From the NCBI RefSeq assembly GCF_014297595.2, contig NZ_CP060414.2, positions 1,364,001 to 1,428,000 on the forward strand: DNA of 64,000 bases, in the 5' to 3' direction. The notes beneath the pieces are model-generated. The model searched no databases. It was not told where the DNA came from and saw nothing but the letters and a program-made list of their open reading frames with translations. Both the position numbers and the translations under genes were made by a program. Positions 3,275 to 50,513 of this stretch are shown here, piece by piece (positions within the stretch are counted from its first letter, which is position 1; the number at the start of each line of letters is the position of its first letter). The stretch comes from Neisseria musculi (GTDB lineage: Bacteria; Pseudomonadota; Gammaproteobacteria; Burkholderiales; Neisseriaceae).

Positions 3275-4402
<1,128 letters not shown>

Positions 4403-5303
4403 TTAACCCTACAAATGTTGGCGGACTGTTTGAATATAAACAGTATTGACAGCCAATACTGACGTAACAATGCTACACCATTCGAAGCCGAATATTAAGA
4501 TGCAAAAAGGCTATTGGTGAAAAATGATGGCTGTCAGATAACGGACGAGCCGTTATCATAGATGAAGGCAAACCAGTCTATTTTGTGAGTATTAAAGACA
4601 GCAGAGCCATAATCTCCTATATTGATGTGGAATTTCCTACCAATACTTACGAATTTGTGCAGGAGGGCGAATTTGTACGGGAGAGCAAATGAAAAGAGCA
4701 GTAAAAGCAGTATTGTTTTTTAGTTGTTACACTTGTCCAGACGGCATCTACCTTACCTAGATAAGTTTAAGTAACGTCATACAGAGCTTTTCCAAAAACA
4801 AAGGCATAGTCTATCTAGGTTTGAGTCAGGCGGGGATGACAATGGATTCAATAAAAATGTATAGACGTATTCGTTTGTTCCCCCTCCATCTGCGTAAAAA
4901 ACTGTGAAACTATGATTATCACATTTGAGTACATTAAACCCAGCAGAGTACGCGTGCCTGATACAGGTCTACTTAGCAATTTACCTTTAAATATCAATAG
5001 CTAGAATACCCTGTTCTCCAGTTTCACATTGAGTGCTCCAAACAGTTTAGGCTGGGATGTCATATATGTGGGTGATGGTCATAGAGATGCTATAAGGTTA
5101 GTTACGGATTCAAAGGCAATAAATTTAATGATGTAGTCGACTTAATGAGACTTCTGATGGGGAATAACCGATGCAAAAAAGTGGATCGCTGTAGTTTCGG
5201 TAATTATTATTCCGTTTGTTTATGCTATCATTAAATCAGCAGCAAGGGCCGGTGAACACAAATCAGCCGGCATCCTATAGCCAAGTTTTTTTCCGGGTGG
5301 CAG
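4403..5303 (+). other. decayed accessory DNA with short gene remnants
   Basis: No full gene is present. Three readable remnants lie in one direction: (i) about 4528-4692, a hydrophilic C-terminus ending EFVQEGEFVRESK; (ii) a start overlapping it by ATGA at 4689 (MKRAVKAVLFFSCYTC) that stops after 23 codons, with later pieces such as KNKGIVYLGLSQAGMTMD; (iii) about 5160-5279, a peptide with one membrane segment (KKWIAVVSVIIIPFVYAII) and a charged tail. The spacing and ATGA overlap suggest a former small operon. I do not recognise the family. Confidence 0.35.
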
Positions 5304-43442: not shown

Positions 43443-45545
43443 TTAAAACTTATAGTTCACTGCCAGGCGGAAATCACGGCCTATGCCGGGGAGGGTTTCG
43501 CCCCGTTGGCTGTGCGGATAATAGTATTTGTTAAATACGTTGTTTACCGAGAAATTCACATTCAAAGTATCTTTGCCCAGCGGTTTCCAGTTGGCAAAAA
43601 TATCATTGACATTGTAGCTCTTGCGCTCGACTTGGGCGGCATTGCCGTTGCGGTCGCGCACCAAAACCGAACCTTTGGCTTTCTCTACGGTGCGGTTTTG
43701 CCAGCCGATTTCGAGATTGGGTTGGTTGAAGCGGTAGGCCAGCGAGGCTGTCCATGTGCGCCCTGCCTGCACGGCAAATTCGGGGTTGGCACTGAGCAGG
43801 TTGCCGGGGTGGGTGTCGTAAAGGCGAGGCTTGCTGTGCGCCACTCCTGCTTTGGCAATCAGCCCGCCGGTGCGGTAAGACGCGCCAAGCTCGTAACCGC
43901 GGTTTTTGATGTAGCCGGCGTTGGCGGCTTCGCGCACGCCCCCGATAATGTTGCCGGCGGCATCATGGCGGTTTTGCGGGTTGGCAATGGCGTCTTTAAT
44001 GGTTTGCCAGAAATAGCTGCCGCTGGCGGCAAAGGTGCCGTTGTTGTAGTTGAAGCCGATTTCGGTGTTGCGCGCGCGTTCGGCTTTGGTGCCGTCTGCA
44101 ATGGAAACAATGCCGCGCCGGCCGTGGGTGAGCAGCGCATCATAAAGCCTGGGGCTGCGGGTGGCATAGTTGTGTACGGCGCTGAAGCTGAGCGTTTCGA
44201 GCGGCTGCCAGATCAGGCCGAAGCTCGGGTTGAGCCGGCCGTCTGAAACCGATTTGCCGTCATGGGTTTTGATGTCGAAATGGTCGTAGCGCAGGCCTGC
44301 TGTGAGCGTGAAATCGCCGATATCGTTAATCGCTTCCACATACGCGCCGGAATCGGTTTTTTTCGGATTGGTTAGATTGTAGCTTCTCACCAATGCTTGG
44401 CCGGCGGGATTCGTTCGATTGGTGTATTGGTGGTTAAGGAATGCATGCGGCTCGATTTCTTGATGACGGTAATTTACGCCGTATTTCAAGGTGGTGTATT
44501 GGCCGATGCGGCTGTCCAAACCCACATTGGCACCTTTGGTGTCAATCATGGTGGTGGTCGGCCCGGGAACATTGCCGGCATAGCCGTTGTTGGTGTCATC
44601 GGCAGAATAGCGTTTGTTTTTCATCAGATAGGCATTGGCTTCAAGCTTATCGATGAAACCGAGATTCTTCGCGGTATATTCAAGGTTGGTATTGGAGAGG
44701 GTGGTTTCGCGGTAGGCCGGGGCGTTTGATGCCAGGCTGCCGTCCGTGCGCGGGGTGGTTTCCCAGCCGAATTCTTCACGCACAAAACGCTCGCCGCGGT
44801 GTTGGTCCTGCATGTGGCTCAACACAATGCGGTGGTTGTCGAATGTGGCGCCGATTTTGGCCAAATAACTGCGTTTGTCCAACCCGCTTTTCAGCACGGT
44901 GTTGCCGCCGTATTGGTTGGCGTAGCCCTTGCCGGCTTTATAGTCGCTTTCATCGTTTCTGCTGTAGGAAAACAAACCGTCAAAATTGCCGGCACGGCCG
45001 AATACGCTGGTGCCGTAATTGTGGCCGTTGTTGCTGGCATAGCCGGCATTCACGCGCACGCCCCAGTCTTTATCCAAACCTTTGAGCAAATCTGCCGCAT
45101 CAAGGGTTTTGGCAACAATAGCACCGTTGGTTGCGCCGATACCGGAACTGGCCGAACCCGCGCCTTTTTGCACCGACACGATTTTCACCAGCGAAGGGTC
45201 AATAATAAAGCGGCCTTGGTGATAAAGAATCTGGCTGTCGGAATAGGCGTTGTCTATTTTGATATCGACCGAGTTCTGCCCCATGCCGCGAATGGTCAGA
45301 AACTGTGAAGTACCGTTACCGCCGCCGAAATCAACGGCCGGCTCTTCTTCCAGCAGTCCGCGCAAATCAGTAGCCGTGCTTTCATCTTTCTTTTGCAGTG
45401 TTACCACGTTGGTTTTGATTTTTGCACCCTGGCGGTCGCCTTTCACCACTACTTCTTCCAGCGCAGCGTTGACCGCTTCGGTGTCTGCCCACGCAGGCAC
45501 CATGAATACATTACCGACCAACACGGCCAATATCGTTTTCTTCAT
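43443..45545 (-). CDS. fetA: FetA-type TonB-dependent siderophore receptor
   Basis: An outer-membrane 22-strand beta-barrel that imports ferric catecholate siderophores with TonB energy. The signal peptide MKKTILAVLVGNVFMVPAWA is cut before DTEAV. A TonB box-like EEVVVKGD follows, then the plug (STATDLRGLLEEEPAVDFGG, FLTIRGMGQNSVDIKIDNAY) and barrel to a C-terminal VNYKF. It follows meningococcal FetA closely along its length but has shorter surface loops, notably the L3 region (ALVRSYNLTNPKKTDSGAY). ATG at 45545. No poly-C tract lies in the upstream region, unlike the phase-variable meningococcal promoter. No fetB operon follows. Confidence 0.92.
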   Translation of the reverse strand: MKKTILAVLVGNVFMVPAWADTEAVNAALEEVVVKGDRQGAKIKTNVVTLQKKDESTATDLRGLLEEEPAVDFGGGNGTSQFLTIRGMGQNSVDIKIDNAYSDSQILYHQGRFIIDPSLVKIVSVQKGAGSASSGIGATNGAIVAKTLDAADLLKGLDKDWGVRVNAGYASNNGHNYGTSVFGRAGNFDGLFSYSRNDESDYKAGKGYANQYGGNTVLKSGLDKRSYLAKIGATFDNHRIVLSHMQDQHRGERFVREEFGWETTPRTDGSLASNAPAYRETTLSNTNLEYTAKNLGFIDKLEANAYLMKNKRYSADDTNNGYAGNVPGPTTTMIDTKGANVGLDSRIGQYTTLKYGVNYRHQEIEPHAFLNHQYTNRTNPAGQALVRSYNLTNPKKTDSGAYVEAINDIGDFTLTAGLRYDHFDIKTHDGKSVSDGRLNPSFGLIWQPLETLSFSAVHNYATRSPRLYDALLTHGRRGIVSIADGTKAERARNTEIGFNYNNGTFAASGSYFWQTIKDAIANPQNRHDAAGNIIGGVREAANAGYIKNRGYELGASYRTGGLIAKAGVAHSKPRLYDTHPGNLLSANPEFAVQAGRTWTASLAYRFNQPNLEIGWQNRTVEKAKGSVLVRDRNGNAAQVERKSYNVNDIFANWKPLGKDTLNVNFSVNNVFNKYYYPHSQRGETLPGIGRDFRLAVNYKF

Positions 45546-45574
45546 CTCGAACCTCATTTGCACATAAACAAGTT

Positions 45575-45848: not shown

Positions 45849-46028
45849 TCAATGCCCGTGTTGCTGCCACTCTTTGATATTGCGGCGTATAAATGCCAGT
45901 TGGCTGCGGTAGCAGCGGCAGCTCGGGCACACTGCCAAATGCATCACCACCGAAAGGCGTTCCCTCATAGAAAGCCGGCGGTCTTGGCTCTCTGAAAGCA
46001 GTATGCAAGCTTCTTTACATTTCAACAT
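45849..46028 (-). CDS. zinc-finger (zf-HC2) anti-sigma factor, 59 residues
   Basis: Reading from the ATG at 46028, which overlaps the sigma-factor end by 14 bp, gives MLKCKEACILLSESQDRR, then RERLSVVMHLAVCPSCRCY and a basic tail ending QQHGH. The HX3CX2C group plus the N-terminal cysteines is the zinc-binding pattern of ZAS/zf-HC2 anti-sigma factors. It is only the zinc domain, without a membrane helix, so it is likely a soluble sensor holding the ECF sigma factor inactive. AAGGAAAG precedes the start. It is the last gene of the operon. Confidence 0.85.
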   Translation of the reverse strand: MLKCKEACILLSESQDRRLSMRERLSVVMHLAVCPSCRCYRSQLAFIRRNIKEWQQHGH

Positions 46029-46629
46029 AGCTCTTTCCTTGCTCCCCTATTTCGGTATCTGCCAAATCAAACCAACGTTGCTGCAGGCATTGCCGCAGTC
46101 CGTTGCGGGCACGGTGCAGGATAACGTAGCAGTTTTCTTTGCTGATGCTGAATTCTCGGCATATTTCAACTACTTCCCAGCCCATGATCTCGCGCAGATA
46201 AAAAATACGTGCGGTATCGTGCGGAAGCCCCTGCATACAGTTTTCCAACGCCCGGAAAAAATCCTGCCTGCACAGCGCGTCTTCCGGCGCAGGTTGCCAA
46301 TATTGCGGAGCGGCAGCAGGTTGCCAGTGACCGCTTTCATCGAAACAACCGTTATAGCCCCGCTCGATGGCATCATTTTCTTCCTGCATACCTTCAAGGC
46401 TTATCATGTGCCTGCTGCTGCGGAAATAATCGGCAATTTTATTTTTGAGTATGCTCAGCACCCAGGTTTTCAACCCGGCTTCCCCCCGGAACTGGCTGTG
46501 TTTGGCTATGGCTGCCGCCAGGGTGTCCTGCACGATGTCTTCGGCCAGAAATTCATCACGCAACTGGATTTTGGCAAAGCGTAAAATATCGCAATGCAGC
46601 TCGGCAAGTTTATGTTTGAATTGTTCCAT
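46015..46629 (-). CDS. ECF-type RNA polymerase sigma factor of the hvf operon
   Basis: About 204 residues from the ATG at 46629 ([11 protein letters not shown]). Region 2: RFAKIQLRDEFLAEDIVQDTLAAA, then FRGEAGLKTWVLSILKNKIADYFR. Region 4: LPHDTARIFYLREIMGWEVVEICREFSI and NCYVILHRARNGLRQCL. There is no region 3, so it is a group 4 (extracytoplasmic-function) factor, with a longer linker (about 95-130) than usual. It starts inside hvfC (20-bp overlap) and overlaps the anti-sigma gene by 14 bp, so it is made together with the peptide-modifying enzymes. This suggests positive autoregulation of the whole cluster. Confidence 0.92.
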   Translation of the reverse strand: MEQFKHKLAELHCDILRFAKIQLRDEFLAEDIVQDTLAAAIAKHSQFRGEAGLKTWVLSILKNKIADYFRSSRHMISLEGMQEENDAIERGYNGCFDESGHWQPAAAPQYWQPAPEDALCRQDFFRALENCMQGLPHDTARIFYLREIMGWEVVEICREFSISKENCYVILHRARNGLRQCLQQRWFDLADTEIGEQGKSYVEM

Positions 46630-47356
46630 CGGTTGATTTTGTTGTGAGTAAAACGCCCGCATCCACCCAGTCATTAACTGCCGGTTTCAAAAGCTCCGCC
46701 ACATCCTGCTCGGGCAGCAGCTCCTGCAGGCCTGCCAAAAGATTGGTAAATGTGTCGCTTTGGCGTTGGAAATGCTGCAGCAAAAACAGGTCGGTGCCTT
46801 CTATCGTGCGGTAATAAACCTCGTTGCTGCGGTTGCGCCAAGTTAAAACATGGCAGGGTGAGTCTTCTATCTGCTCCGGCCCGATGCTGACAAAATCACA
46901 GGGGTAATATTGCAGCCGGGCCGCAGGCGCCCAGGATAACACACTATGCTCATGCCAGCGGCCGTCTGAATCAGGCTGTATGGCTGTTTCGGCATGCAGC
47001 AAGGCGGTTTCAAAATCCATTACGGCCAGCATATTTTCAGACGGCCGCTCATGTTGCGGCAGGCTGTTGAGATAGGCGAGAAATTGCGGGGGAATATCAT
47101 TAAAAAACGGAGATTCCGGGTGTGCCTCGATTAAAAAACGGTTTTGCCAGCCCTGCCATTGTTCGGAATCGGCCAGCAGACTGCTGTCGCTGAAGCAGAG
47201 ATCGAGAAAACTTTTTATATTGTTGCGCACCAAGCGGGTATAAACAGCCAAGCGCTCAGGCGCGATACCGGGGGGGGCAGGCAGCGCGGGGTTGCGGATA
47301 TGATCGGCAAGCTGCGCCTGCGCCTGCGCTGAAGAAATAGGGTTATGCGGCTGCAT
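46610..47356 (-). CDS. hvfC: HvfC/BufC, DUF2063 partner protein of the MNIO enzyme
   Basis: A 248-residue soluble protein with the DUF2063 domain at the N-terminus ([64 protein letters not shown]) and a second C-terminal domain after about 150. In characterised systems this protein binds the precursor leader and the DUF692 enzyme. It starts at the ATG at 47356, overlapping hvfB by 14 bp. Codons 27-29 (GCC CCC CCC) make an eight-base C tract at 47270-47277, a length at which neisserial genes can slip in and out of frame. It is in frame here. Confidence 0.88.
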
Positions 47357-48194
47357 GTTTGGCTCTCTCCGCCTGCTGCTGAATCGCGGCAATGCGTGCC
47401 ACTTCGGCCTCCAATTCGGCAAACGGCGGCAAGTTGCTGTCGCGCTCCAGCAGTGTGGGTACATTTTGCGGCAGGCTGCGGCAAGTGTAGGCAAACAAAT
47501 CCCACACATCATCGCATACAGCCTGCCCGTGGGTGTCAATCAACAGTTCGGCAGTTTCTTCATCGTGCCCAGCCATATGAATATAGCTTACCCTTGCCAA
47601 ATCGGTGCGGTTGATATAATCGGTTGGTGCAACAATGCCGTGGTTTACGGCGTTCACGTAAATATTGTTGATATCCAAATGAATATCGCAATCTGCTTCT
47701 TGCACCACTGCATTGAGAAATTCGGCTTCATCCATTTCTGCAATCGGGTTGTGGGCATAATATGAAGTGTTTTCCACCGCAATGCGCATTTCGAGCACAT
47801 CCTGCACCGCGCGGATACGGGCGGCGGTGTGGCGCACCGACTCCCAGGTAAACGGCAGCGGCAGCAAATCATAAATATGCCCGTGGTGGCTGCAATAGCT
47901 CAAATGCTCCGAAAAAAAGTCGATGCGGTATTGCCGCAAAAACGCTTTGATCTGCTTGAGAAAATCAATCTGCAACGGATCTTGACCGCCTAATGAAAGC
48001 GACAACCCGTGGCAGGCAATGGGAAAACGCTCGGCCACTTCGTCAAACTGCCTGCGTGCCGCGCCGCCCATACGCAACCAGTTTTCAGGGGCGATTTCGA
48101 TAAAGCGGATCGGGCTGCTTTGACGGTCGAGCCGCAAAAAGTCGGCGGCCATACTGCGCTTGTAACCCAAACCCGCACCGCGCAAGATATTCAT
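47343..48194 (-). CDS. hvfB: HvfB/BufB, DUF692 (MNIO) peptide-modifying iron oxygenase
   Basis: A TIM-barrel protein of 283 residues in the multinuclear non-haem iron-dependent oxidative enzyme family. These enzymes rework cysteines in small precursor peptides; in HvfA/bufferin systems the product is a sulphur-containing heterocycle that binds copper(I). Ligand-bearing motifs are visible: [63 protein letters not shown] and [10 protein letters not shown]. It starts [15 protein letters not shown] like the family. A 304-bp gap with a DUS hairpin separates it from the precursor genes; hvfC overlaps its end. Confidence 0.93.
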
Positions 48195-48498
48195 TTCGTG
48201 TCCTTTATTATAGTATTGGAAAAAACCGGCTGTTTACACCTTTACAATGGCAAAGAGCTTTGCTTTTCCGCTGAAATAACCGTTTCTTGATTTTTGCCTA
48301 TGCTCGAAACCATAGCTCGCTGTGCTTTCCGGCGTTATCGGCAACCTTTAAAAATTTCCCAAAAGGTTTTCGATGCAGAAACAAGAAAAGCAACAATGCC
48401 GGAATTTTCTATATATCGTGCTGTTTCAAGCATACCGTTCGAAGAGGCCGTCTGAACGCCGTAACGGCAAAATCCCGCATTCAGACGGCCAAACTCGC
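48195..48498 (-). other. gap between precursor and enzyme genes, with DUS hairpin at 48444-48490
   Basis: GAGGCCGTCTGAACGCC and CATTCAGACGGCC form a stem just past the hvfA1 stop. No gene is supported in the gap. The hairpin could stop most transcripts after the precursors so that substrate is made in excess over the enzymes, which is inference. The 48200-48330 part is A+T richer and could hold a second promoter. Confidence 0.5.
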
Positions 48499-48843
48499 TT
48501 ATTTACTGCCGCATTTGCCTTCGCCGCACTTACCCTCGGCAGCTTTGGCAGGTTTCTTTTTCGCCGAAGCGCCGCACTTGCCCTCACCGCACTTGCCTTC
48601 GCCCGCTTTGGAAGCCTTCTTGCCGGCCGCACCGCACTTGCCCTCACCGCACTTGCCTTCGCCCGCTTTGGAAGCCTTCTTGCCGGCCGCACCGCACTTG
48701 CCCTCGCCACACGCGCCTTCCTGCGCTTTTTTGGTAACGGTTTTCACAGTTTTGGCAGCGGGCTGTTTGGTTTCAGCCATGGCCTGCCCGCCCAACAAAG
48801 CCAGCGAACCGGCCAATGCAATCAGAGAAGAAGTTTTTTTCAT
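48499..48843 (-). CDS. hvfA: HvfA/bufferin-type precursor 1, secreted, eight EG(K/A)CG motifs
   Basis: 114 residues. A cleavable signal peptide (MKKTSSLIALAGSLALLGGQ, with an AMA cut site before ETKQ) is followed by a lysine-rich spacer and a core with one EGACG and seven EGKCG motifs, arranged as pairs (EGKCGEGKCG) separated by AAGKKASKAG or similar. Cysteine is otherwise absent from the mature part. EGKCG is the motif that MNIO enzymes convert to copper-binding heterocycles in HvfA/bufferins. A 60-bp unit (20 residues) is exactly duplicated at 48572-48691, so the number of metal sites can change by recombination. Confidence 0.92.
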   Translation of the reverse strand: MKKTSSLIALAGSLALLGGQAMAETKQPAAKTVKTVTKKAQEGACGEGKCGAAGKKASKAGEGKCGEGKCGAAGKKASKAGEGKCGEGKCGASAKKKPAKAAEGKCGEGKCGSK

Positions 48844-48934
48844 GATGTTTCCTTTTTAAAAAGTATTGAAAAACAGAGAGTACAGTGATAAAGCCGTCTG
48901 AAAGCCCGTGTAGTTCTTTCAAACAGGCATCACA

Positions 48935-49195
48935 TCATTTACTGCCGCATTTACCTTCGGCAGACTTACCGCTGTGCGATGCTGCGCCGCATTTGCCTTC
49001 GGCAGCCTTGCCATTGTGCGATGTTGCGCCGCATTTACCTTCGGCAGCTTTGCCGCTTGCGCCGCATTTTCCCTCGCCCACTTTATGCTGCCCAGAGGCT
49101 GCAATCGGAGCAGAGGGGGCAGAACCGGCCTGACAACCCGCCAGTGCCAGCGCACCGGCCAATGCGGCCAAAGCAGTAGAAGTTGTGGTTTTCAT
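48935..49195 (-). CDS. HvfA/bufferin-type precursor 2, lipoprotein form, four EGKCG motifs
   Basis: 86 residues from the ATG at 49195. The signal has a lipobox (ALALAGC at about residue 20), so unlike precursor 1 the product should be lipid-anchored. The mature part has four EGKCG motifs spaced by ASGKAA, ATSHNGKAA and AASHSGKSA, and histidines that precursor 1 lacks. It ends EGKCGSK, the same as precursor 1, so the two are paralogues with different cell locations. AAAGGAATAATA precedes the start. Confidence 0.9.
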   Translation of the reverse strand: MKTTTSTALAALAGALALAGCQAGSAPSAPIAASGQHKVGEGKCGASGKAAEGKCGATSHNGKAAEGKCGAASHSGKSAEGKCGSK

Positions 49196-49265
49196 CTTTA
49201 TTATTCCTTTCAAATAAATTAAGAGGGACAAACTTTTCTTGCGTGAAAAAACCTATTTGGGCTTT

Positions 49266-49721
49266 TCAGACGGCCTTGCCCGGCCGGCCGAACAGCAGAT
49301 GGTCAAGCGAAAAACGACCCATGCCCTGAAGTAGCAGCGGCAGCAGCACCACCAGATAAATCAGCGCCATTTTGTAGCCGTTGTCACATACATTATAACC
49401 ATTGCCGCCGTGCACCGCCGCCCACGCTACTGTCGTCAGCACCATCAGCATCAATGCACCGGCGCGTCCGAACAAGCCCGACAACAGCAACAGCGGCGCG
49501 ACCAGCTCGATACCCGTTGCCGCAGCCCAGTTGAAGCCGGCAGGAAACAAGCTGAACGGAAACGGAAATGCGCCTTGAATATCGGCAAACCAGTTTTGAC
49601 CGTTCCATTTTTCGATACCTGCTTCCCAAAATTCATAAGCGGCAAACAGGCGCAAACCCAAAAGCGCAATATCTTTGCCCCAAGTGTTGGAAAAACGGCT
49701 CAAACAAGCGGTGCGGTTCAT
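49266..49721 (-). CDS. hvfX: HvfX, DoxX-family membrane protein
   Basis: 151 residues with four membrane helices of the DoxX type (LLGLRLFAAYEFWEAGIEKW, FNWAAATGIELVAPLLLLSG, ALMLMVLTTVAWAAVHGG, MALIYLVVLLPLLLQG). HvfX proteins accompany HvfABC clusters; the activity is unknown but may be redox related. It is the first gene of the operon. I chose the ATG at 49721 (MNRTACLSRF) after TAGGAATTATT. The stop lies inside a DUS. Confidence 0.88.
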   Translation of the reverse strand: MNRTACLSRFSNTWGKDIALLGLRLFAAYEFWEAGIEKWNGQNWFADIQGAFPFPFSLFPAGFNWAAATGIELVAPLLLLSGLFGRAGALMLMVLTTVAWAAVHGGNGYNVCDNGYKMALIYLVVLLPLLLQGMGRFSLDHLLFGRPGKAV

Positions 49722-49751
49722 AATAATTCCTAACAAATGTTTATGCCTGAA

Positions 49752-49779
49752 TAGACGGCATATACGGCAATTTCTTACA
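49752..49779 (-). promoter_or_regulatory. candidate ECF-sigma promoter of the hvf operon
   Basis: On the minus strand TGTAAG (49774-49779), a 16-bp spacer and CGTCTA (49752-49757) lie 30-58 bp before hvfX. ECF promoters commonly have GTAA-like -35 and CGTC-like -10 elements. An overlapping alternative, TGTAAT-N17-CGTATA, shares the region. Assignment to the cluster's own sigma factor is a guess from position. Confidence 0.4.
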
Positions 49780-50006
49780 CTTCATTACAGATTTTTTAAG
49801 CTTTATTTTTAAATAATTGAAAATTATAATTTATTTTTTAAAATAACATGAGCAGAATGCCGGGTAAGGAAAACAGCAGCAATGTTGAAAATGCCCTTTG
49901 ATTATACCATAACGGGGAAAGTATAAAAACAGCCTTTCAGACGGCCCAAACATTTTTTGCCGAAAAAGGTTATATGATATACTCGCCACAAAATAAGGAA
50001 AACAAG

Positions 50007-50513
50007 ATGGATTTTTTCAACACCCGCAGCATAACGTTTGATAATCCCATAGAAATGCTCTATGCCTGCCACAGCAAAGTGCGCCGTTTTTGCAGCCAAG
50101 TGCAGATGCTGCCCGGCTACATCGTCGCCAACGGGCGAAATGATGCGGCATTGCAGGCGGTGAAACAGATCAGCCAATATTTCAACACCGCCGCTCCGCT
50201 GCACCACCAAGATGAAGAAGAAGATTTGTTCCCCCTACTGCTGTATCACTTTCCCCACACGCGCAGCAATATCGAAGAACTGCAACGCCAGCACGAAAGC
50301 CTGCACGCCGGCTGGGCAGCGGTAGAACACGAATTTGCCGGCCTGCTGGCCGACCCCGCCTACCGCCTGCAAACCGATGTACTCCAACGCTTCAGCACAG
50401 GCTACGATGCTCATCTGGCACTGGAAGAACCTTTGTTTGAAACCGGCAGAAACCTGCCTGCGCAAGCGTTGGTCGAAGCAGGAAGAAAGATGGCCGAACG
50501 TAGAAAAACTTAG
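50007..50513 (+). CDS. hemerythrin HHE-domain protein
   Basis: 168 residues from the ATG at 50007 (MDFFNTRSITF; AAGGAAAACAAG in front). It is a four-helix di-iron fold with ligands in MLYACHSKVRRF, APLHHQDEEEDLFPLL, QRQHESLHAGW and YDAHLALEEPLFE. It is a different subtype from the hemerythrin at 10.4 kb. It is divergent from hvfX across an A+T-rich 285-bp gap, so shared stress control is possible but not shown. Confidence 0.85.
   Translation: MDFFNTRSITFDNPIEMLYACHSKVRRFCSQVQMLPGYIVANGRNDAALQAVKQISQYFNTAAPLHHQDEEEDLFPLLLYHFPHTRSNIEELQRQHESLHAGWAAVEHEFAGLLADPAYRLQTDVLQRFSTGYDAHLALEEPLFETGRNLPAQALVEAGRKMAERRKT

Follow-up and report, generated by a model that had tools for sequence, protein, structure and literature searches.

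Which product does a Neisseria operon make when it combines peptide-modifying enzymes with a sigma factor of its own, and to which known system does it belong? The question is raised by a locus of Neisseria musculi (NCBI RefSeq assembly GCF_014297595.2, contig NZ_CP060414.2, positions 1,364,001 to 1,428,000), analysed as a stretch of 64,000 nucleotides, hereafter the window, to which all coordinates refer unless a genome handle precedes them. Seven genes, all on the minus strand, occupy positions 45849-49721 and encode HvfX, two precursor peptides with EGKCG repeats, HvfB, HvfC, an extracytoplasmic function (ECF) sigma factor and an anti-sigma factor. We consider it very likely that the locus is both the neisserial sigma-E (Ecf) operon and an operon for a ribosomally synthesized and post-translationally modified peptide (RiPP) of the EGKCG copper-peptide type (oxazolin/captophorin, HvfABCX), in a version with two precursors that belongs to one Neisseria clade, and that it works as proposed below.

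Identity of the operon and its spread in the genus

The first gene, hvfX (49266..49721), codes for a DoxX-family membrane protein of 151 amino acids (NF050144, 133.6 bits against a cut-off of 80). Precursor 1 (48935..49195, 86 amino acids) has a predicted lipoprotein signal and four separated EGKCG motifs; the codon of its lipobox cysteine, Cys21, lies at 49133..49135, and this residue is invariant in 11 of 11 alignment rows. Precursor 2 (48499..48843, 114 amino acids) is the Sec form, HvfA, with one EGACG and seven EGKCG motifs (NF050188, 117.3 bits, cut-off 95). The adjacent genes hvfB (47343..48194, 283 amino acids) and hvfC (46610..47356, 248 amino acids) encode an MNIO (DUF692) peptide maturase (NF003818, 379.8 bits, cut-off 360; PDB 3bww, E 6.9e-104) and its partner with DUF2063 and a RiPP recognition element (NF050145, 171.5 bits, cut-off 142; PDB 3dee, E 3.8e-33). 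The ECF sigma factor (46015..46629) is the counterpart of neisserial sigma-E/Ecf (TIGR02943, 201.8 bits, cut-off 162.2); a longer frame from the ATG at 46674 is also open, and the family searches used the frame from 46626, one codon past the ATG at 46629. The last gene (45849..46028) encodes an MseR-like zinc anti-sigma factor of 59 amino acids with a zf-HC2 domain (NF052368, antisigmaE, 72.2 bits, cut-off 50).

Six of the seven proteins scored above curated NCBIfam cut-offs, precursor 1 exceeding only that of the EGKCG repeat-domain model (NF050137, 41.3 bits, cut-off 19.5). The genome has a single MNIO gene, and no further EGKCG precursor was found in it outside the locus, except for one match at E 0.13 with internal stops. 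Since the gene order recurs in relatives, the arrangement is beyond chance, and the observation of a real, complete and well identified seven-gene operon is confirmed. An earlier sequence-only reading had described seven minus-strand genes of an EGKCG-type MNIO RiPP operon, overlapping by 14 bp (hvfB/hvfC), 20 bp (hvfC/sigma) and 14 bp (sigma/anti-sigma), and had named family models and gene order in relatives as checks. Coordinates and models bear this description out, HvfB, HvfC and the anti-sigma factor all lying over their cut-offs, the last also with a zf-HC2 match, and the order recurred among 34 Neisseria loci.

The same reading called the cluster 'HvfABCX/bufferin-type', and only the first half of this label holds well. 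Both precursors bear a signal, carry four and seven EGKCG motifs and exceed the NF050137 cut-off, as in captophorins and oxazolins. The gonophorin/captophorin class shares the EGKCG precursor and the MNIO with its DUF2063 partner, and the oxazolin HvfABCX system of Haemophilus influenzae shares the four-gene core and the NCBIfam models; however, the published account of H. influenzae places the sigma factor RpoE2 in the msrAB region, apart from the doxX cluster, and not inside the operon as here. The Bufferin 1 and 2 operons reportedly also combine MNIO, DUF2063 and DoxX proteins, with sigma genes near Buf1. Nevertheless, bufferins are described with precursors of other families, DUF2282 or 6/12-Cys, and with an NrsF-type anti-sigma factor instead of the zf-HC2 protein found here, neither precursor has a Pfam match, and HvfB reached 271.2 bits with the MNIO_BufB model, under its cut-off of 310.

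In Neisseria meningitidis, NMB2140-NMB2145 were reported to form one autoregulated sigma-E transcript, with msrAB as a second target (PMC2893595). In the same report, mutation showed that Cys4, Cys34 and Cys37 of the anti-sigma factor MseR matter and that His30 did not. The 59-residue anti-sigma factor of the window has Cys4, His30, Cys34 and Cys37 at identical positions, and Cys4 with HxxxCxxC (its His at residue 30 or 31) is conserved in 32 of 32 loci. The operon ends with the sigma and then the anti-sigma gene, the order of the neisserial sigma-E operon. NMB2140-NMB2145 and its gonococcal equivalent NGO1948-NGO1943 share with this locus the succession of doxX, hypothetical proteins, sigma and anti-sigma genes, the promoter motif, the anti-sigma cysteine positions and the msrAB target, but have six genes instead of seven, the extra gene here being the second precursor.

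We searched 46 Neisseria genomes and found HvfB in 34 of them (33 over the cut-off). EGKCG matches occurred in 33 of the 46 genomes and the anti-sigma factor in 36, which include all 34 with HvfB. In 32 of the 34 hvfB loci, hvfC is followed on its own strand by the sigma and anti-sigma genes (in G039 after a gap of ∼900 bases), and the embedded pair is therefore the norm of the genus. The sequence-only reading had held both the embedded sigma control and the two precursors to be unusual; the former is ordinary, and was published in 2010 (PMC2893595), whereas the latter, present in 9 of 34 loci, is less so. In G007 and G008 the sigma/anti-sigma pair is located away from the hvf operon, and in G021 and G001 it is present without an HvfB match. 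A more distant pair, its sigma factor 47-49% identical, stands after the gene of a small secreted-looking protein in G008 (L116) and G001 (L115); in G008 it includes the only anti-sigma match of the genome, though the hvf operon there retains its sigma-E type promoter. Among 29 named loci, Pelistega (L069) has the complete Neisseria gene order, and five Acinetobacter loci (L077, L078, L079, L081 and L082) carry hvfB, hvfC, sigma and anti-sigma consecutively with an HvfX match on the opposite strand, an EGKCG precursor being found by pattern in three of the five.

Sigma-E promoter, regulon and proposed working

The neisserial sigma-E promoter has the reported consensus GTMAGBWTT-N12/13-CGTCTAAH (PMC2893595). 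We scored the best site in each region upstream of hvfX against it, allowing spacers of 12-13 bases only. In the window the site lies at 49750..49778 on the minus strand (GTAAGAAAT - 12 nt - CGTCTATT) and scores 14/17, as does the best site 5' of msrAB in this genome. The exact core [GA]T[AC]AG-N16/17-CGTCT precedes hvfX in 33 of 34 loci, with one mismatch in G004. Upstream of msrAB, G001 and G003 lacked a good site by consensus scoring, and G008 was left unscored; the core pattern was then run over whole stretches. It occurs once, on the gene strand and never on the other, in 18 of 20 genomes (20 fetched of the 46), and is missing in G003, which has no anti-sigma match, and in G001, which has the weakest anti-sigma match and no hvfB.

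Several figures speak against the promoter assignment. Taken alone, the site of the window is weak (14/17, shuffle p 0.035), and the shuffle p exceeds 0.05 in 6 of the 34 loci. The pattern GTAAG-N16/17-CGTCTA has two matches in this genome, one ending 30 bases upstream of hvfX and one at a PEBP-family gene, against four for the reversed control pattern; in 20 relatives, a longer pattern ending CGTCTAA gave 27 matches against 17 for the control, and 13 of these 27 lie at hvfX or msrAB, as judged by the next gene start. With two matches only of the core pattern, the idea that sigma-E controls many genes of this genome was rejected. The genes, their order, the motifs and the conservation of promoter and hairpin (see below) are established by this analysis.

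The site before the PEBP-family gene (G000:C1:1573941-1573968, L124; G000 is the genome of the window) scores 16/17 by hand count. We take the product of this gene to have a Tat-like (twin-arginine translocation) start, and the neighbouring gene presumably starts like enolase. The site is a lead only, because none of the 27 matches in the 20 relatives lies at a homologue of that gene. A sigma-E type core also stands upstream of sodC, for a Cu/Zn superoxide dismutase, in the two genomes that resemble N. dentiae (G011:C1:2463515-2463542 and G012:C16:42783-42810), and not at the other five of seven sodC loci; no sodC match was obtained in the genome of the window, and 60 residues of the supposed SodC had no Pfam match.

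Two neighbours adjoin the operon. A divergent gene for a hemerythrin-domain protein (49974-50513) lies next to hvfX; none of the other 33 loci showed it in the flanks retrieved. A TonB-dependent receptor gene (43443-45563; TIGR01783 over cut-off) follows the operon on the minus strand. It was rejected as a member of the operon, which it adjoins in only 3 of 34 loci (G000, G011 and G012) as far as the retrieved flanks extend; a sigma-70-like site precedes it, but the region has about as many such sites as chance would give (6 against an expected 4.7).

For homologues, the operon, its autoregulation, the anti-sigma cysteines, the thiooxazoles, copper binding and lipidation are established. Gonophorin of N. 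gonorrhoeae (ngoABC) is reported to carry 5-thiooxazoles, with a loss of 4 Da per cysteine, and to bind one or two copper atoms (PMC13097082). What we infer is how the operon functions in this species, what induces it and how the two forms share the work. Stress on the zinc site formed by Cys4, His30, Cys34 and Cys37 would make the anti-sigma factor let go of sigma-E, which would then transcribe from 49750-49778 and at msrAB. In the cytoplasm, HvfB and HvfC would oxidize the EGKCG cysteines of both precursors to 5-thiooxazoles. Precursor 2 would be exported by Sec as a soluble envelope peptide, and precursor 1 would be lipidated at Cys21 and held on what is probably the outer membrane. Both peptides would bind copper(I) and so shield thiols and iron-sulphur sites, while MsrAB would repair oxidized methionines. 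A repeat 3' of the precursors may trim read-through, leaving precursors in excess over enzymes and the sigma factor last and least. Stated as a whole, tentatively and at somewhat under even likelihood, one MNIO pair would mature two precursors for two addresses, one as a buffer in solution and the other as a shield anchored to a membrane, and both would come from a single sigma-E transcript with a repeat that sets the precursor far above the enzyme; this would be the arrangement of one clade, in the half of the enzymes with Ser, Asn or Thr at a contact residue, and would provide, with MsrAB, a dual-location defence against copper and oxidants.

The sequence-only reading had the cluster switch itself on when metal or thiol stress releases the sigma factor. 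Control by the sigma/anti-sigma pair stands; the nature of the stress is unsupported as stated and is a hypothesis, since the published evidence on induction is mixed. Hypochlorite reportedly induces the homologous doxX cluster of H. influenzae in an RpoE2-dependent manner, and neutrophils are reported to raise the gonococcal operon. Conversely, oxidative stimuli left meningococcal sigma-E expression unaltered in the published experiments (PMC2893595), and a gonococcal ecf deletion is described as having no survival defect with neutrophils; both count against the proposed working. The two inductions, together with msrAB as the partner gene of the regulon and the promoter before sodC in two of seven loci, would also suit an operon mainly for envelope defence against oxidants (hypochlorite), whose modified peptides would serve as sacrificial sulphur targets or as thiol buffers, with copper binding of secondary importance. 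We regard this as rather unlikely: gonophorin made with copper in Escherichia coli is reported to bind copper (PMC13097082), and the unaltered meningococcal expression argues against an oxidant role as well.

The inverted repeat and stoichiometry

In the gap between precursor 2 and hvfB, an inverted repeat of paired DNA-uptake-like sequences (48446..48490, minus strand) folds with -31.7 kcal/mol (z -2.7), a value reached by 4 of 200 shuffles. Of the 34 loci, 22 have a perfect inverted repeat of at least 9 pairs in the gap that separates hvfB from the precursor nearest to it, whereas 40 sets of dinucleotide shuffles averaged 0.70 and never exceeded 3; the 22 loci are not 22 events, since related genomes are counted repeatedly. 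Such stems are present in 2 of 33 hvfX-precursor gaps, 2 of 21 hvfC-sigma gaps and 3 of 9 gaps between the lipoprotein and Sec forms, gaps shorter than 30 bases (one hvfX-precursor locus, 11 of 32 hvfC-sigma loci) being excluded.

The inverted repeat may favour the precursor over the enzyme, as a partial terminator or as a protected mRNA end. In the meningococcus, deletion of the anti-sigma gene was reported to give 187,292 (doxX), 60,516 (precursor), 63,164, 40,218 and 9,997 (sigma) reads along the operon (PMC3240639, Table 2). From these we computed about 416, 202, 75, 58 and 17 reads per base, and 12, 17, 6, 5 and 3 in the wild type, using approximate gene lengths from relatives and not those of strain H44/76. 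The density falls along the whole operon, and the step at the end of the precursor is therefore not the sole one. Moreover, the hairpin of the window has no T-run, a stem of 9 is absent from 12 of 34 loci, and read-through was reported in the meningococcus by reverse-transcription PCR and RNA sequencing (PMC2893595, PMC3240639), all of which weakens the case for a role of the repeat.

DNA-uptake sequences are common in this genus. The stem is a DNA-uptake-like pair in the window and in several relatives, and the repeats could be mere uptake sequences that form hairpins by accident, with no effect on expression. However, the stem sequence varies by lineage, unrelated stems occupying the same gap elsewhere, and within these operons stems are rare between hvfX and the precursor and between hvfC and sigma; a lack of any effect thus appears somewhat improbable.

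Two precursors for one enzyme pair

Tandem precursors are present in 9 of the 34 loci (G000, G002, G008, G011, G012, G027, G029, G044 and G045), in all nine with the lipoprotein form next to hvfX and the Sec form next to hvfB. By motif, the signal of every lipoprotein form ends in LAGC (residues 18-21 in precursor 1) with Gln next, and every Sec form has EG[AT]CG as its first repeat motif, which the lipoprotein forms do not have. Precursor 2 is thus predicted to be soluble in the envelope and precursor 1 to be lipid-anchored to the membrane, as the sequence-only reading had proposed; each form has a published homologue. With precursor 1 as query, 16 proteins were retrieved from the protein collection, and LAGC is found in the window's own and in P0002, P0004, P0005 and P0007.

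In a tree of HvfB and HvfC, which drew long-branch warnings for G004, G032, G041 and G013, all nine tandem loci fall within one group of 12 rows (99/96, fork drawn open), the other members being the single-precursor loci G013, G032 and G041. The tandem label requires 3 changes, compared with a mean of 8.2 when shuffled. One gain after G013 with two losses costs as much as three gains (3 changes each), and none of the bootstrap trees groups the tandem loci as a single clade. A single gain is favoured, because the order and the lipobox are shared among the tandem loci. Two single-precursor loci, G041 and G043, have lipobox-like signals of their own.

The repeats themselves turn over. The two precursor genes of G008 share an identical stretch of 56 bp, so repeats can be exchanged between precursors; the other eight pairs share 16 to 29 bases, and exchange as a general feature was rejected, being clear in G008 only. 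In G029 (L038 3590-3937) the lipoprotein precursor has six EANCG and no EGKCG motifs and stands beside a Sec precursor with EGKCG, and is a natural substrate variant for one MNIO. In G022 (L057, near 4080-4460) the sole precursor gene looks frameshifted in its repeats, through mutation or an assembly error.

Precursor 1 could also be a redundant duplicate with no role of its own, the copy number of EGKCG being what matters and the lipid anchor incidental. This would fit the three single-precursor members of the 12-row group, the variable EGKCG count of the lipoprotein forms (3 to 10, and none in G029) and the exchange in G008. It is nevertheless unlikely, since in all nine tandem loci the LAGC lipobox, the following Gln and the first position are kept despite the turnover of the repeats, and the first EG[AT]CG stays confined to the Sec form.

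Two points tell against precursor 1 as a substrate: it has isolated EGKCG motifs only and falls under the full HvfA model (NF050188, 28.9 bits, cut-off 95), and FonBC was reported to modify a two-repeat and not a one-repeat substrate in vitro (PMC13097082). NedA of Neisseria dentiae shares with precursor 1 the lipoprotein signal and EGKCG motifs, and when made in E. coli it was reportedly tri-acylated and 12 Da lighter, read as three modified EGKCG (PMC12636315). It has three motifs, against four separated ones in precursor 1, and that work, in its accessible text, treats it alone. P0004, a 64-residue N. dentiae lipoprotein with three motifs, is identical to the first precursor of the tandem locus G011, and the published NedA therefore probably derives from a tandem locus; the accessible parts of PMC12636315 make no mention of a sister precursor. 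In the comparison with the NedABC system, HvfB is 90-91% identical in G011 and G012. Tandem precursors and lipoprotein signals have been remarked on among bufferins (PMC12452194). In the literature searched, as far as its text was accessible, we found no description of a lipoprotein/Sec EGKCG pair under one sigma factor. The less ordinary feature of the locus is this pair, in one clade, each part of which has already been studied in relatives.

The HvfB enzymes also fall into two groups. In FonB, Asp249 is the reported base and Arg15, Arg16 and Phe250 are substrate contacts, at which alanine still gave product (PMC13097082). The equivalents in HvfB, assigned by motif and not by comparison with the FonB sequence itself, are Lys12-Arg13 and Asp252-Ser253. 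HvfB thus has Ser where FonB-like enzymes reportedly keep Phe, which PDB 3bww also has at this position; the gonophorin work, in its accessible parts, covered one precursor. The supposed base Asp is present in all 34 Neisseria HvfB proteins, of which 18 combine Arg with Phe and 16 Lys with Ser, Asn or Thr, all tandem loci belonging to the second group. That HvfC (DUF2063) is a DNA-binding regulator and not the partner of the peptide enzyme, DNA binding having been proposed with the 3dee structure (PMC2954202), is almost certainly wrong and already contradicted by work on homologues, as the ngo genes including NgoC, the 3dee protein, reportedly yield a 5-thiooxazole peptide when expressed (PMC13097082) and the family models name HvfB and HvfC as maturation proteins.

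The locus joins two literatures: the Neisseria sigma-E (Ecf) operon, for whose first genes no function was known in 2010, is the captophorin operon. Nature provides in the tandem loci two peptides with the same enzyme and the same switch and different cell addresses, from which to learn what anchoring adds to a copper-binding peptide.

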